Below, piece by piece: positions 24,668 through 39,438 of a stretch of 64,000 bases of DNA. A model generated the notes under the pieces. It worked only from the letters and a program-made list of their open reading frames with translations, made no database searches and was not told the origin of the DNA. Each line of letters opens with the position of its first letter. The first letter of the stretch is position 1. Both the position numbers and the translations under genes were made by a program. Origin of the DNA: Sporichthya polymorpha DSM 43042 (GTDB lineage Bacteria > Actinomycetota > Actinomycetes > Sporichthyales > Sporichthyaceae); contig NZ_KB913029.1 of the NCBI RefSeq assembly GCF_000384115.1, positions 5,121,057 to 5,185,056 of the forward strand, given 5' to 3'.

Positions 24668-24713
24668 TGCGTCCGACGATGTGGTTGCTATTGCAGCCAC
24701 ATCGTCGGACGCA
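24668..24713. repeat. Dispersed palindromic repeat, family 2, copy 1
   Basis: Perfect 17-base arms (24668-24684 and 24697-24713), 12-base loop; inner bases of the loop can pair further. A 40-base core (24671-24710) matches 40551-40590 region at 34 of 40 positions, including GCTAT in the loop and TCGTCGGAC at the end. Located just after the ppdK stop, it may also terminate ppdK transcription. Confidence 0.82.
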
Positions 24714-34516: not shown

Positions 34517-35116
34517 ATGAGCGTCATGACGTCCCCGAACCCGACCTTCCCCGATCTCGACGAGATCCGCGGCCGGTACGGCCGCATCGCCGCCGACCTC
34601 GACCTGCGGGTGGGGCGCGTGCGGACCCTGGACTGGAACTCGATGACGCCGTGCCGCGACTGGAACAGCCGCGACCTGCTCGCCCACGTCGTCGACAACC
34701 ACCGGCGGGTGCTGGCCGCGCTGAACGACACCCCGCTGGAGGAGGTCACCGACACCGAGGACGTGATTGCCGCCTGGCGTGCCGCGACCGCGGACGTCGC
34801 CGCGGCGCTCGCGGAGGACGAGAAGGCCCTGTTCCCGGTGCGCTTCTACGGGGCGGAGTCGGAGTTCGCCACCCTCGTTGGCGGGATGCTCTGCACCGAC
34901 ACCCTGATCCACACCTGGGACCTGTGCCAGGCGGCGGGCCTCGACGACAAGCTCGACGAGGCCGGGGTCGAGGCCGCGTTCGAGCTGCTGAGGAGTTTCG
35001 GCGACTCGATCCGCGCCCCGGGCGCCTTCGGCCCCGAGATCCCGGCGCCCCCGGAGGCCACGCTGCAGGACCAGCTGATCCTCTACTCCGGCCGCAAGGT
35101 CATCGGGCTCGACTGA
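34517..35116 (+). CDS. TIGR03086-family DinB-like metal-binding protein
   Basis: A 199-residue protein of the mycothiol-maleylpyruvate-isomerase-like DinB superfamily. Conserved elements are DWNSRDLLAHVVDNHRR, with the metal histidine in LAHVV, and TDTLIHTWDLCQA, carrying the second histidine. Members bind a divalent metal in a four-helix bundle and often act on thiol conjugates, but function here is unknown. The ribosome site is poor for ATG 34517, and ATG 34526 is an alternative. It follows zur by 18 bases. Confidence 0.83.
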   Translation: MSVMTSPNPTFPDLDEIRGRYGRIAADLDLRVGRVRTLDWNSMTPCRDWNSRDLLAHVVDNHRRVLAALNDTPLEEVTDTEDVIAAWRAATADVAAALAEDEKALFPVRFYGAESEFATLVGGMLCTDTLIHTWDLCQAAGLDDKLDEAGVEAAFELLRSFGDSIRAPGAFGPEIPAPPEATLQDQLILYSGRKVIGLD

Positions 35117-35133
35117 GCCGTTCGGCAGCGCAG

Positions 35134-35158
35134 GCGGCCTGACGCTGCGTCAGGCCGC
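35134..35158. terminator. Hairpin after the TIGR03086 gene
   Basis: GCGGCCTGAC and GTCAGGCCGC pair perfectly around GCTGC, followed by TT, 17 bases after the stop of the upstream gene. It also lies downstream of the convergent hypothetical gene. Confidence 0.6.
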
Positions 35159-35233
35159 TTCCGCCGCCGCGGTCTCGCGGACCGTGGTGCGTGGGCTGCG
35201 CACGGTCACCACCTCACCCACCCGGGTGGCCCG

Positions 35234-35530
35234 TCAGGCGGGGATCAGGTCCTCGTGCAGGACGTGCTCGGCCTCGACCTGTCGGCCGCTCTCCCGACGA
35301 AGGTCGTCGAGCGCGGCCAGGGCTGCGAGGTAGATGCCCTCGGCGTCGACCGCGAGGACGACCCGCTCGGAGAACTCCCCCGTCGGCGAGGTCACCGTCG
35401 CGCACCACCGGACGAACGGCCCGACGCGGTAGTCGACGACCGCGAGCAGCGGTGCGGGCGCGCGCCGGGCGCTGCGGAGAGCACCGCGACCGGCACGGAA
35501 GGGGAAGCGGGGACGAGGGAGGACACGCAT
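35234..35530 (-). CDS. Hypothetical protein, about 98 aa
   Basis: An arginine-rich N-terminus (RVLPRPRFPFRAGRGALR) precedes a compact domain, VVDYRVGPFVRWCATVTSPT and VLAVDAEGIYLAALAALDDL, ending EHVLHEDLIPA. No family is recognised. The codon pattern is consistent with coding, and ATG 35530 is the first start after a stop-free run, but there is no strong ribosome site. Upstream in the 216-base gap lie a 35-bp palindrome and a possible micro-ORF. Confidence 0.5.
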   Translation of the reverse strand: MRVLPRPRFPFRAGRGALRSARRAPAPLLAVVDYRVGPFVRWCATVTSPTGEFSERVVLAVDAEGIYLAALAALDDLRRESGRQVEAEHVLHEDLIPA

Positions 35531-35585
35531 GGGATCGATCCGTTCGAGGGGCCGCGGCAGGGCGGCGAAGTGGTCGGGGGCGGGC

Positions 35586-35681
35586 TCAGCGCCAGGAACA
35601 CAACACGTCGGACACCGCGTGCGTGTGCATCCCGATCAGCGACAGCCGATACGGCTTGTGCGACTGAATGTCGACCAACAT
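35586..35681 (-). CDS. Possible 31-codon micro-ORF or leader peptide
   Basis: An ATG in the centre of the palindrome at 35662-35696 opens a frame of 31 codons ending in a cysteine-tryptophan-containing tail (SDVLCSWR, stop). It sits 56 bases before the hypothetical gene start and downstream of the SulP gene. Cysteine-containing leader peptides are known upstream of some actinobacterial sulphur genes; that is the only reason to propose it. No ribosome site is visible and the peptide could be chance. Confidence 0.25.
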   Translation of the reverse strand: MLVDIQSHKPYRLSLIGMHTHAVSDVLCSWR

Positions 35682-35696
35682 GGTTGACATTCAGTC
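35662..35696. repeat. 35-bp inverted repeat in the SulP to hypothetical-gene spacer
   Basis: GACTGAATGTC and GACATTCAGTC form perfect 11-base arms, with inner ACC/GGT also pairing. The sequence is AT-richer than its surroundings. It contains the ATG of the micro-ORF near its centre. It could be an operator, a terminator for SulP, or an RNA hairpin; none is established. Confidence 0.7.
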
Positions 35697-35746
35697 GGAG
35701 GTCCGCGGCGCGGTTCAACGCCTTTACGGCCGCCCACAGCGAACGC

Positions 35747-37435
35747 TCACCCTTCGGGCGCGAGCACCCCGTCCTGGCGCAGGCGGGCACGGGCCGCCGC
35801 GATCGCCTCCGGCGTCGACGCGGCCACCCGGCCGGCCTCCTGCAGGCGGGGCAGCACCCCGACCGCGGTCAGCGGCCGGCGGTGCACCGGGCGCAGCCCG
35901 GAGAGGTAAACGACGACGCCGCGGCGCTCCAGCGCCCCGATCACGTCGGCGAGGACGATCGCGCCGCTGGCGTCGATCGTCGACACGTGCGACAGACGCA
36001 GGATCACGACCGCGACGTCGGCGACGTCGGTCAGCTCCAGCAGGAAGCGATGGGCGCCGGCGAAGAACAGCGGGCCGTCGAGGCGGTAGGCGACGATGTG
36101 CTCGGCGAGGAGGGCGTGCTCCTCCTCCGCGGTGTCGGGCGGGAGCTCCTCGGAGAGCGGGACCTCCGCGACCTCGGACGCCCGGACGATCGTCCGCAGT
36201 GCGAGAGCCCCGGCGACGAGCAGGCCCAGCAGGACGGCGCGGACGAGGTCGAGCGCGATCGTCACCGCCGCGGTGAGGACCAGCACGACGGCGTCCGGAC
36301 GTGTCGAGCGCGCGATGGCGCGCACGGACCCGACGCTGACCATCTGCCAGGCGGTCGCGAACAGCACGCCGGCCAGCGCCGCGAGCGGGATCTTCTCGAC
36401 GATAGGGGCCGCGGCGAGGACGAGGATCGCGAGCACGACCGCGTGGGCGAACGCGGCGAGGCGGGTCGTCGCCCCGGCGCGGACGTTGACGGCGGTGCGC
36501 GCGATCGCGCCGGTCGCGGGCACGCCGCCGAAGACCGGCGCGGCCAGGTTCGCCAGGCCCTGGCCGACGAGTTCCCGGTCGGGGTCGTGGCGCTGCGAGA
36601 CCGTCATGCCGTCGGCGACCGAGGCCGAGAGCAGGGACTCCAGAGCGGCCAGCGCGGCCACCGCGATCGCCGGCGCGATCAGGGCGTCGAGGTCGCCGAG
36701 GTCGACGAACCCGAGCGACGGCGCCGACAGCGACCGCGGGATCTCCCCCACCCGCCCGACCTGGAGGTCGGCGGTCTCGGCCACGACCGTCGCGACGGCG
36801 ACGGCCAGCAGGGCGAGCGGGAGCGTCGGGCGGCGCCGGGTCGCGAGCACGATGCCCGCCGCGACCAGCAGCGCCAGCAGCGGCGAGGCAGCGCCGGGGT
36901 CGTCGGCGAACTCCCGGACCGCCCGCCCGGCGGTGACGAGCGCGCTCTCCGCGCTCTCGACGTCGACCCCGAGGGCGGCGGGCACCTGCTGCAACGCGAT
37001 GACGCAGGCGATGCCCACCGTGAACCCCTCGACCACCGGCGCCGGCACCAGGCTCATGTACCGGCCGGCCCGGGCGACCGCGAGCGCGATCAGCATCAGC
37101 CCCGCGAGGACGCCGACGAACAGCACACCCTCGCGGCCGTGCTCGTGCGCGATCGGGACCAGGACGACCGTCATCGCGCCCGTCGGGCCGGACACCTGCA
37201 GGTTGGAGCCACCGAAGATCGCCGCCACCGCGCCCGCGACGATCGCCGTCACCAGCCCGGCCTCGGCCCCCAGCCCGGACGCGATGCCGAAGCCGAGCGC
37301 CAGCGGCAGCGCCACGACGGCGACGGTCACCCCGGCCTGGAGGTCGCGACGCCAGGACCGGCGCATCGGCGCGACGTCGGCCGCCGACGGGAGCAGCGAG
37401 CGCCAGCCGGACACGGCCGCCGGGAGCGGGGCCAT
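35747..37435 (-). CDS. SulP-family anion (sulphate/bicarbonate) transporter with STAS domain
   Basis: A 562-residue membrane protein: SulP transmembrane domain of about 10-12 helices beginning RRDLQAGVTVAVVALPLALG, with GLGAEAGLVTAIVAG and QVSGPTGAMTVV, family motifs, and a C-terminal STAS domain from about residue 440 (RLDGPLFFAGAHRFLLEL, then IDASGAIVLADVI). The family carries sulphate, bicarbonate or other anions; substrate is not decided by sequence. Its ATG overlaps the ArsR stop by one base (TGATG), so it is co-expressed with and probably controlled by that regulator. Confidence 0.9.
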   Translation of the reverse strand: MAPLPAAVSGWRSLLPSAADVAPMRRSWRRDLQAGVTVAVVALPLALGFGIASGLGAEAGLVTAIVAGAVAAIFGGSNLQVSGPTGAMTVVLVPIAHEHGREGVLFVGVLAGLMLIALAVARAGRYMSLVPAPVVEGFTVGIACVIALQQVPAALGVDVESAESALVTAGRAVREFADDPGAASPLLALLVAAGIVLATRRRPTLPLALLAVAVATVVAETADLQVGRVGEIPRSLSAPSLGFVDLGDLDALIAPAIAVAALAALESLLSASVADGMTVSQRHDPDRELVGQGLANLAAPVFGGVPATGAIARTAVNVRAGATTRLAAFAHAVVLAILVLAAAPIVEKIPLAALAGVLFATAWQMVSVGSVRAIARSTRPDAVVLVLTAAVTIALDLVRAVLLGLLVAGALALRTIVRASEVAEVPLSEELPPDTAEEEHALLAEHIVAYRLDGPLFFAGAHRFLLELTDVADVAVVILRLSHVSTIDASGAIVLADVIGALERRGVVVYLSGLRPVHRRPLTAVGVLPRLQEAGRVAASTPEAIAAARARLRQDGVLAPEG

Positions 37436-37788
37436 CAGCCGGCCGGTATCTCGGGGGCCGTCGGGTCGGTCAGCGCCTCCGTCTGCCCGACGAGCACCTC
37501 GGTCAGGATCCGCCGGGCGGCCGCGAGCAGGTCGACCACCTCGACCCCGGCGAGCGAGTAGATGACGGTGGTCCCCTCCCGGCGGGCGGACACGATCCCC
37601 GACCGTCGCAGCACCGCGAGCTGCTGCGAGAGCCCCGCGGGCCCGATCTCGATCGCGGCGAGCAGGTCCCGGACCGACGTCGGCCCGGCCGCCAGCAGCT
37701 CGAGCACCCGGATCCGCACCGGGTGCCCGAGCATGCGGAAGAACTCCGCCTTCGCCTGGTACAGCGGGAGCGCGCCGGGGGAAGTCAT
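37435..37788 (-). CDS. ArsR-family repressor of the SulP transporter
   Basis: A 117-residue winged-helix regulator: AEFFRMLGHPVRIRVLELLA, then DLLAAIEIGPAGLSQQLAVLRRSGIVSARREGTTVIYSL. Few cysteines are visible, so a classic metal site is not apparent; a redox, sulphide or anion signal is possible. ATG 37788 is chosen because a longer start would place the operator in the coding region. It overlaps SulP by one base and lies downstream of the dyad at 37803-37824. Confidence 0.88.
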   Translation of the reverse strand: MTSPGALPLYQAKAEFFRMLGHPVRIRVLELLAAGPTSVRDLLAAIEIGPAGLSQQLAVLRRSGIVSARREGTTVIYSLAGVEVVDLLAAARRILTEVLVGQTEALTDPTAPEIPAG

Positions 37789-37802
37789 GCCTTCATCATA
37801 AC

Positions 37803-37824
37803 TGCATAATTTCAATATTGTGCA
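37803..37824. promoter_or_regulatory. ArsR operator dyad
   Basis: TGCATAATTT and ATATTGTGCA flank CA; 8 of 10 arm positions pair. It lies 15 bases upstream of the ArsR start in an AT-rich island unlike the surrounding GC-rich DNA, where an ArsR dimer would block its own promoter. Confidence 0.65.
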
Positions 37825-37879: not shown

Positions 37880-38674
37880 TCAGCCGGCGGGCGGGACCGG
37901 GTTCGGGGCGGCGCCGCCGTAGCGGCGGTCCCGGGAGGCGTAGAGCTCGATCGCGTGCCAGAGGTGGCGGCGGTCGAAGTCGGGCCAGAGGGTGTCGAGG
38001 AAGACCAGTTCGGCGTAGGCGCTCTGCCAGAGGAGGAAGTTCGACGTGCGCTGCTCCCCCGAGCTGCGGACGAACAGGTCGACGTCGGGGAGGTCGGGCT
38101 CGTCGAGGTACCGGGCGAAGGTGGTCTCGGTGATCTTGTCCGGCTTCACCGTGCCGGCGGCGACGTCGGCGGCGAGGGCGCGAGCGGCGTCGGCGATCTC
38201 GGCACGGCCGCCGTAGTTGACGCAGAACTGCAGCGTGATCTTGTCGTTGCGGGCGGTGCGCCGCTCGGCGTCCTCGAGCTCGGAGATGACCGACCGCCAG
38301 AGCTTGGGCCGACGCCCGGCCCAGCGGACGCGGACGCCCATCGCGTCGAGCTCGTCGCGGCGGCGGTGGATGACGTCGCGGTTGAAGCCCATCAGGAAGC
38401 GGACCTCGTCGGGCGTCCGCTTCCAGTTCTCGGTCGAGAACGCGTACGCCGAGACGCACTCGACGCCGATCTCGATCGCGCCGCAGATGACGTCGAGCAG
38501 TGCGGCCTCGCCGGCCTCGTGGCCCTTGGTCCGGGCCAGGCCTCGTTGCTTGGCCCAGCGGCCGTTGCCGTCCATCACGATCGCGACATGACGGGGGATC
38601 AGTTCCTTGGGCAGGTCGGGCGGACGCGCGCCGGACGGATGCGGCGGCGGAGCCGCGTACTGGCGACGGCTCAT
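37880..38674 (-). CDS. uppS: Isoprenyl (undecaprenyl/decaprenyl) diphosphate synthase, cis type
   Basis: Builds the polyprenyl carrier lipid for cell-wall synthesis. The 264-residue protein has the hallmark [17 protein letters not shown], with catalytic D35, then [11 protein letters not shown] and [17 protein letters not shown] with [13 protein letters not shown] 38674 is chosen because it overlaps the recO stop (ATGA); longer in-frame starts add unrelated sequence. The recO-uppS order is conserved in actinobacteria. Exact chain length cannot be told. Confidence 0.96.
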
Positions 38675-39438
38675 GCGGACGTGGCCGTCGGTCCCGGGGC
38701 AGAGGGCTGGTCGCGCTCGACGTGCCGGAGCGAGCGCAGGCCACGCTCGAGGTGCCACTGCAGGTAAGCGGCGACCAGACCGCTGGCCTCGCGCCGGGCG
38801 CGCGGGGCGGCGGACTCGGCGACCTCCCAGTCGCCCGAGAGCAGCGCCCCGAGCAGGACGAGCGTCTCGGCGCCGGGAGCGGCGCAGGCCGGTGGGCGGC
38901 AGTCCGCGCAGGTCGCTCCCCCGCCCGGGATCGTGAAGAAGCGGTGCGGGCCCGGGGCCCCGCAGCCGGCGCAGTCGGAGAAGCTCGGCGCGTACCCGGC
39001 GATCGCCAGCGACCGGACGAGGAACGCGTCGAGCACCATCACCGGGTCGCGGTCGCTCTCGGCCAGCGCACGGAGGCCGCCGACCAGCAGCTGGTACTGC
39101 TGCAGCGCCGGGTCACCCTCGTTCTCGGTGAAGCGCTCCGCGGCCTCGAGCATCGCCTGGCCCGCCGTCCAGCGGGCGTAGTCGCGGGAGAGCTTGCCGC
39201 CGAAGGCGTCGACGGTCTCGATCTGCTGGGCGATGTCCAGCGTCCGCCCGGAGTAGCACTGCACGTCCACGTGCGCGAACGGCTCCAGGCGCGCCCCGAT
39301 CCGCGACGAGGTCCGGCGGACGCCCTTCGCCACGGCGCGGATCCGCCCGTGGCGCCGCGTGAGCAGCGTGACGATGCGGTCGGCCTCCCCCAGCTTCTGG
39401 GTGCGCAGGACGACCCCGGTGTCCCGGTAAACGCTCAC
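38671..39438 (-). CDS. recO: DNA repair protein RecO
   Basis: A RecFOR-pathway protein that loads RecA on SSB-coated gaps. The 255-residue product starts [21 protein letters not shown] (OB fold), and has a zinc-binding CAGCG ... CADC cluster in the middle ([10 protein letters not shown] and [12 protein letters not shown]). GTG 39438 follows directly after the TGA of the DinB gene. Overlaps uppS by 4 bases. Confidence 0.95.

Follow-up and report, generated by a model that had tools for sequence, protein, structure and literature searches.

A candidate cysteine-responsive leader peptide with its start codon in an inverted repeat in Sporichthya polymorpha

Between a transporter gene of the SulP type and the gene for a hypothetical 98-aa protein, the genome of Sporichthya polymorpha carries a long inverted repeat, at the centre of which a micro-ORF has its start codon. 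This locus raises the question of whether the repeat acts as DNA, as RNA or not at all, and whether the micro-ORF encodes a regulatory leader peptide, as was proposed in an earlier note made from the letters of the window alone (the window being the whole 64-kb stretch of DNA that was analysed). Throughout, G000 denotes the genome that contains the window, and G001 and G002 are other genomes of the same genus.

The inverted repeat and its surroundings

Both the inverted repeat and the micro-ORF were confirmed, the latter on the minus strand. The repeat had been described as a 35-bp AT-rich dyad; it is real and slightly longer, at 37 bp (35661–35697, without strand), with 17-nt arms that pair at 16 of 17 positions around a 3-nt loop, and because 18 of its 37 bases are G or C it is AT-rich merely in relation to its surroundings. 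An ATG does occupy the loop, as claimed, and opens a frame of 31 codons that runs along the minus strand from 35681 to 35586 and encodes the 31-aa peptide MLVDIQSHKPYRLSLIGMHTHAVSDVLCSWR followed by a stop, with the dyad straddling its start codon. An alternative in-frame ATG at 35690 would yield a 34-aa form of the leader. The tail of the peptide, LCSWR, contains both residues for which it had been called cysteine-tryptophan-rich, but with one Cys and one Trp the word “rich” overstates the case. The sole Cys codon (TGT, 35598–35600, minus strand) is codon 28 of 31 and is the proposed sensing codon.

The leader starts 65 nt past the stop of the SulP-type gene (at 35747; gene 35747–37435, with Sulfate_transp and STAS domains) and ends 55 nt before the ATG, at 35530, of the 98-aa gene (35234–35530), in agreement with the place given to it earlier; all three ORFs are on the minus strand. 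The 98-aa gene is the presumed target of regulation. A simple scan of the locus found no consensus promoter, and no site resembling an intrinsic terminator either in the interval between leader and 98-aa gene (35531–35585, minus strand) or between SulP and leader. Directly upstream of SulP, at 37435–37815 on the minus strand, is a gene for an ArsR/SmtB-type regulator, whose similarity to the sulphite-sensing BigR falls below the cut-off and which may control SulP.

Among the window's 19 near-perfect inverted repeats (arms of at least 12 nt, a loop of 3–10 nt and at most one mismatch), the dyad ranks third in length. Repeats with arms of at least 17 nt number three in the real window and four, counted redundantly, across 20 windows simulated from dinucleotide frequencies. 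Elsewhere in the window are a longer near-perfect inverted repeat with 21-nt arms and a 4-nt loop (24668–24713) and two strong inverted repeats lying close together, with 25-nt and 15-nt arms (2739–2796 and 2843–2877). In the whole 5.5-Mb genome, GACTGAATGTC occurs only as the two arms of the dyad. A pattern made from the dyad core gives 28 matches in the same genome, against 13 for a backwards control. The single perfect match is the dyad itself; the second best has one mismatch and falls where long open frames overlap, probably inside a gene, and the other 26 have three mismatches each. The exact core has no match in the genome contig collection, which may omit records very near the window's genome. 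An Rfam search of 35100–35900 returned nothing near gathering scores, the best hit at the dyad reaching 17.8 bits against 80.

Relationship of the leader to the Ms4533A family

Profile comparisons support the view that the leader, although divergent, is homologous to NCBIfam NF042937, “Ms4533A family Cys-rich leader peptide”. We take Ms4533A to be one of the mycobacterial leaderless cysteine-responsive attenuator ORFs; a literature search on the name found no paper containing it. The window leader gives no match to the NF042937 model at E ≤ 10 and does not reach its curated cut-off of 31 bits, and the G002 copy gives no match either. When the two-sequence alignment of these leaders is compared by hhalign with nine Ms4533A-type leaders, the probability is 94.8 and E is 5.4e-8. 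A profile of nine rows, from which this genus was excluded but which takes in G142 and G073, both below the NF042937 cut-off, gives the leader 21.7 bits, a score that none of 5000 shuffles reaches. With this profile the leader also outscores the window's 351 short ORFs; the nearest of them, at 21.5 bits, is the leader ORF itself in its 34-aa form. A seven-row profile built from genomes over the NF042937 cut-off gives it 13.7 bits, which likewise exceeds all 5000 shuffles.

The relatives came from several searches. NF042937 at E ≤ 1 matches 128 of 148 genomes, seven of them over the cut-off. In G082, below the cut-off, an ORF resembling a leader precedes a comparable binding protein, and it was left out of the profile rows; another weak match, in G049, looks like chance on reading. 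A first search with the peptide at E ≤ 1 matched 116 of 396 genomes, and among the 29 loci read from these besides our own, three were leaders (G073, G142 and G041), all first found using the window peptide or its profile. Eight weak peptide matches read from the 148-genome search included one leader (G073). The 30–31-codon ORFs with the pattern LxLxGVxxHxVxDxxCR that the loose profile search of the 396 genomes gave in three other genomes score 42.2, 30.7 and 28.0 bits against the NF042937 cut-off of 31.

At E ≤ 0.02, a combined profile gives matches in at least 51 genomes out of the 393 searched in the class. This search is not independent evidence of homology because the profile includes the window peptide; the hhalign comparison and the nine- and seven-row profiles come closer to independence, although G142 and G073 among the nine rows were first found using that peptide or its profile. 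Absences from the combined search are not firm because scoring was limited to 20 first-look candidates in each genome. We read the best 36 of the 51 loci (E down to 2.7e-6), our own and that of G002 included. Judged by their size and content, the genomes are perhaps for the most part those of streptomycetes and mycobacteria. By short motifs, with one example checked in each of three classes, 16 of the 36 precede a sulphate-type binding protein (SBP), 17 a family-5 SBP and one, in G531, a sulfatase gene; the other two precede the 98-aa orphan. The checked sulphate-type example is a 160-aa fragment below the TIGR00971 cut-off. The leader before the sulfatase gene passes the NF042937 cut-off (31.4 against 31 bits), and its target class is absent from the other 35 loci (it is locus L116). 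With relatives that precede SBP or sulfatase genes and homology to the Ms4533A family, the leader peptide does appear to be sulphur-related, as had been suggested. The last six residues contain one Cys in 21 of the 36 leaders, the window leader among them, and two to four in the remaining 15. In two of the loci (L038 in G142 and L049 in G041) a GC-rich inverted repeat, seen by eye, lies between leader and binding-protein gene and is possibly an attenuator element.

Around the sulphate-binding protein gene of the window's own genome, none of the short ORFs up to 1.5 kb away in both directions is a leader of this kind, the best score being 2.3 bits. Thus, the leader is found here on the orphan and not on its usual target.

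The 98-aa gene and its association with the leader

The 98-aa gene was found in two of 148 genomes searched, its own and G002. In G002 the protein is 89% identical and the leader, conserved upstream of this orthologue in the same gene order, is 94% identical with one 6-nt in-frame indel. The peptide is conserved, contrary to the outcome that the earlier note had named as refuting its reading. Between the two copies of the 98-aa gene, differences number 2, 8 and 19 at the three codon positions, with 16 synonymous and 10 non-synonymous codons, a pattern that, on this comparison, shows the gene evolving as coding sequence. Upstream of the unit, hydrogenase membrane and large subunit-like genes, read from their translations, replace SulP in G002; downstream, gene order is common to both. 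Neither the leader nor the 98-aa gene was seen in G001, the third genome searched from this genus: at the matching place a 199-aa neighbour gene adjoins an uppS-like ORF, with no leader, 98-aa gene or SulP between them (the counterpart in the window, at 37880–38758, is presumably uppS-like by our own reading). Because the unit stands behind a different upstream gene in G002, and SulP too is absent from that place in G001, it is the 98-aa gene, and not SulP, that partners the leader.

The 98-aa protein belongs to no Pfam or NCBIfam family, and its PHROG matches have E values of 0.13 or worse. A pattern search for relatives gave 18 stretches in the genome contig collection, none of them confirmed, and none in the plasmid collection; both collections may omit records near the window's genome. 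An AlphaFold2 model from two sequences has a mean pLDDT of 59 and the order helix, three strands, helix, strand, and Foldseek found no match to it at E ≤ 0.001. With VIA-align the best Z is 6.4, mostly to retroviral reverse transcriptase chains, a level that the tool calls common, and we draw no claim from it. Since a leader related to presumed sensors of cysteine shortage precedes its gene, the protein is marked as one that probably belongs to the sulphur-starvation response of the cell.

Candidate attenuation and possible roles of the dyad

The relatives bear on where transcription might begin. In the hexamer that ends 7 nt before the start codon, position 6 (8 nt before the start) is T in 35 of the 36 loci and position 2 (12 nt before the start) is A in 32, counts that are not independent events because the genomes are related, and that depend on start codons chosen by script, of which that of G531, also without A at position 2, may be wrong. 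This −10-like hexamer suggests the layout of a leaderless transcript. The corresponding predicted −10 position in the window (35689–35694, minus strand) reads CTGAAT, and TAGAAT in G002, and a −35-like TTGAAC is predicted 18 nt ahead of it (35713–35718, minus strand). If the transcript is leaderless, the left arm of the dyad is promoter DNA that is not transcribed, and the main transcript therefore cannot form the dyad's hairpin. The proposal that a hairpin switch hides the start is accordingly unlikely for the main transcript, given a transcription start that would fall at the ATG.

The explanation we favour, with a probability of roughly 0.68, is that the leaderless, Ms4533A-homologous leader acts as a cysteine-responsive attenuator of the 98-aa gene. 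Transcription from a minus-strand promoter would begin at the ATG in the dyad's centre and give a leaderless mRNA, from which the 31-aa leader would be translated first. When Cys-tRNA is scarce, the ribosome would stall at codon 28, altering the structure or termination of the RNA that follows such that the 98-aa gene is expressed; when cysteine is plentiful, the leader would be completed and expression of the gene would stay low. The computational grounds for this mechanism are the homology of the peptide, the conservation of leader and 98-aa gene in one congener and the association of the family with sulphur acquisition. Counting against it are the failure of the leader and its G002 copy to match NF042937, the lack of the usual A in the −10 hexamer of the window, the negative promoter and terminator scans, the single Cys codon of the leader, an orphan target with no known link to sulphur and the absence of the unit from G001. 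When the leaderless RNA was folded, both with a stalled ribosome and without one, no clear switch common to G000 and G002 emerged; translational control or Rho-dependent ends are possible in place of an intrinsic terminator.

What the dyad itself contributes is a separate matter. Its inner 27 bp are identical in G002, where inner arms of 12 nt are kept. The outer arms, perfectly paired in G000, do not pair in G002. Among 30 loci tested, a repeat of such size at the start codon occurs in two, G000 (17-nt arms) and G002 (12-nt arms), both of the same genus, and the arms at the remaining 28 are just 5 to 7 nt. For these reasons, the dyad is not the working part of the leader family. The chance is somewhat short of even that it is a functionless by-product, a quasi-palindrome perfected in the window's genome by templated mutation, which also damaged the −10 element. 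The left outer arm shows three differences from G002 and the right outer arm two, and together these make the pairing exact in G000 alone; among the three of 30 loci without A at position 2 of the −10 element, a one-base shift judged by eye fits two and leaves only G000. Both the outer arms and the poor −10 sequence would be explained if templated mutation had completed the palindrome at the cost of the promoter, although two genomes cannot settle the direction of change and the inner 27 bp are unchanged.

That constancy of the core, maintained while the neighbouring spacer between −35 and −10 diverged, would also suit an operator. A repressor dimer spanning the −10 element and the start codon would then control the transcript, whether or not the leader attenuates as well. 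Repressor sites are typically positioned over −10 and +1, as the dyad is. This reading is possible but unsupported, and we consider it unlikely: no clear second site shows up among the core matches in the genome, comparable repeats are missing from 28 of the 30 loci, the outer arms diverge in G002, and the demands of the −10 element and of the coding sequence could by themselves keep the core constant. It is also rather improbable that the dyad serves as an RNA hairpin on transcripts reading through from SulP, burying the ATG such that only transcripts started at the ATG translate the leader. The strand that includes the left arm does form the dyad when folded, at −64.5 kcal/mol (z −4.19); the scan showed nothing resembling a terminator between SulP and the leader, and the inner 12-nt arms are kept in G002. 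Yet the read-through is presumed, the upstream gene differs in G002 and 28 of the 30 loci tested have no dyad. An equally speculative combination gives one sequence three jobs, with the left arm as −10 element, the centre as leaderless start and the palindrome silencing that start on read-through RNA or when bound by a dimer. Were this so, the attenuator would respond to no promoter but its own, and the 98-aa orphan that it targets would be a sulphur-starvation protein that has so far gone unrecognised.

The attenuator that we favour would resemble known systems in part. Leaderless ORFs with Cys codons are described as cysteine-responsive attenuators in mycobacteria (Canestrari et al. 2020, PMID 32181921, as described in PMC9031893 and PMC9094748), and Table 4 of a report on S. 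lividans TK24 (PMC8079986) gives eight attenuator peptides, none of the Ms4533A type. Like the polycysteine short ORFs of those mycobacterial accounts, the leader is short, has a Cys codon, is predicted to be leaderless and lies upstream of a presumably regulated gene; unlike them, it has one Cys codon and not a run, and its response to cysteine is a prediction.

Compared with NF042937, the window leader does not reach the model's cut-off, ends in C-(S/H)-W-R, precedes a 98-aa orphan instead of a binding protein or sulfatase and has a long palindrome across its start codon. It shares with that family a length of about 30 codons, a Cys just before the stop and a downstream gene on the same strand. 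The leaderless promoter spacing predicted for the family is one that TAGAAT in G002 fits and CTGAAT in the window fits poorly. The motif L.L followed by V.D..C is common to all 11 aligned rows, the window peptide among them, and all 11 have Cys in the column of codon 28. The leader would thereby extend a family of cysteine leader peptides to a lineage missed by the standard family model, and attach a testable role, in sulphur or cysteine starvation, to a protein without a known family. A further suggestion is that the genes behind such leaders differ, encoding sulphate-type SBPs, family-5 SBPs, a sulfatase and, here, an orphan.
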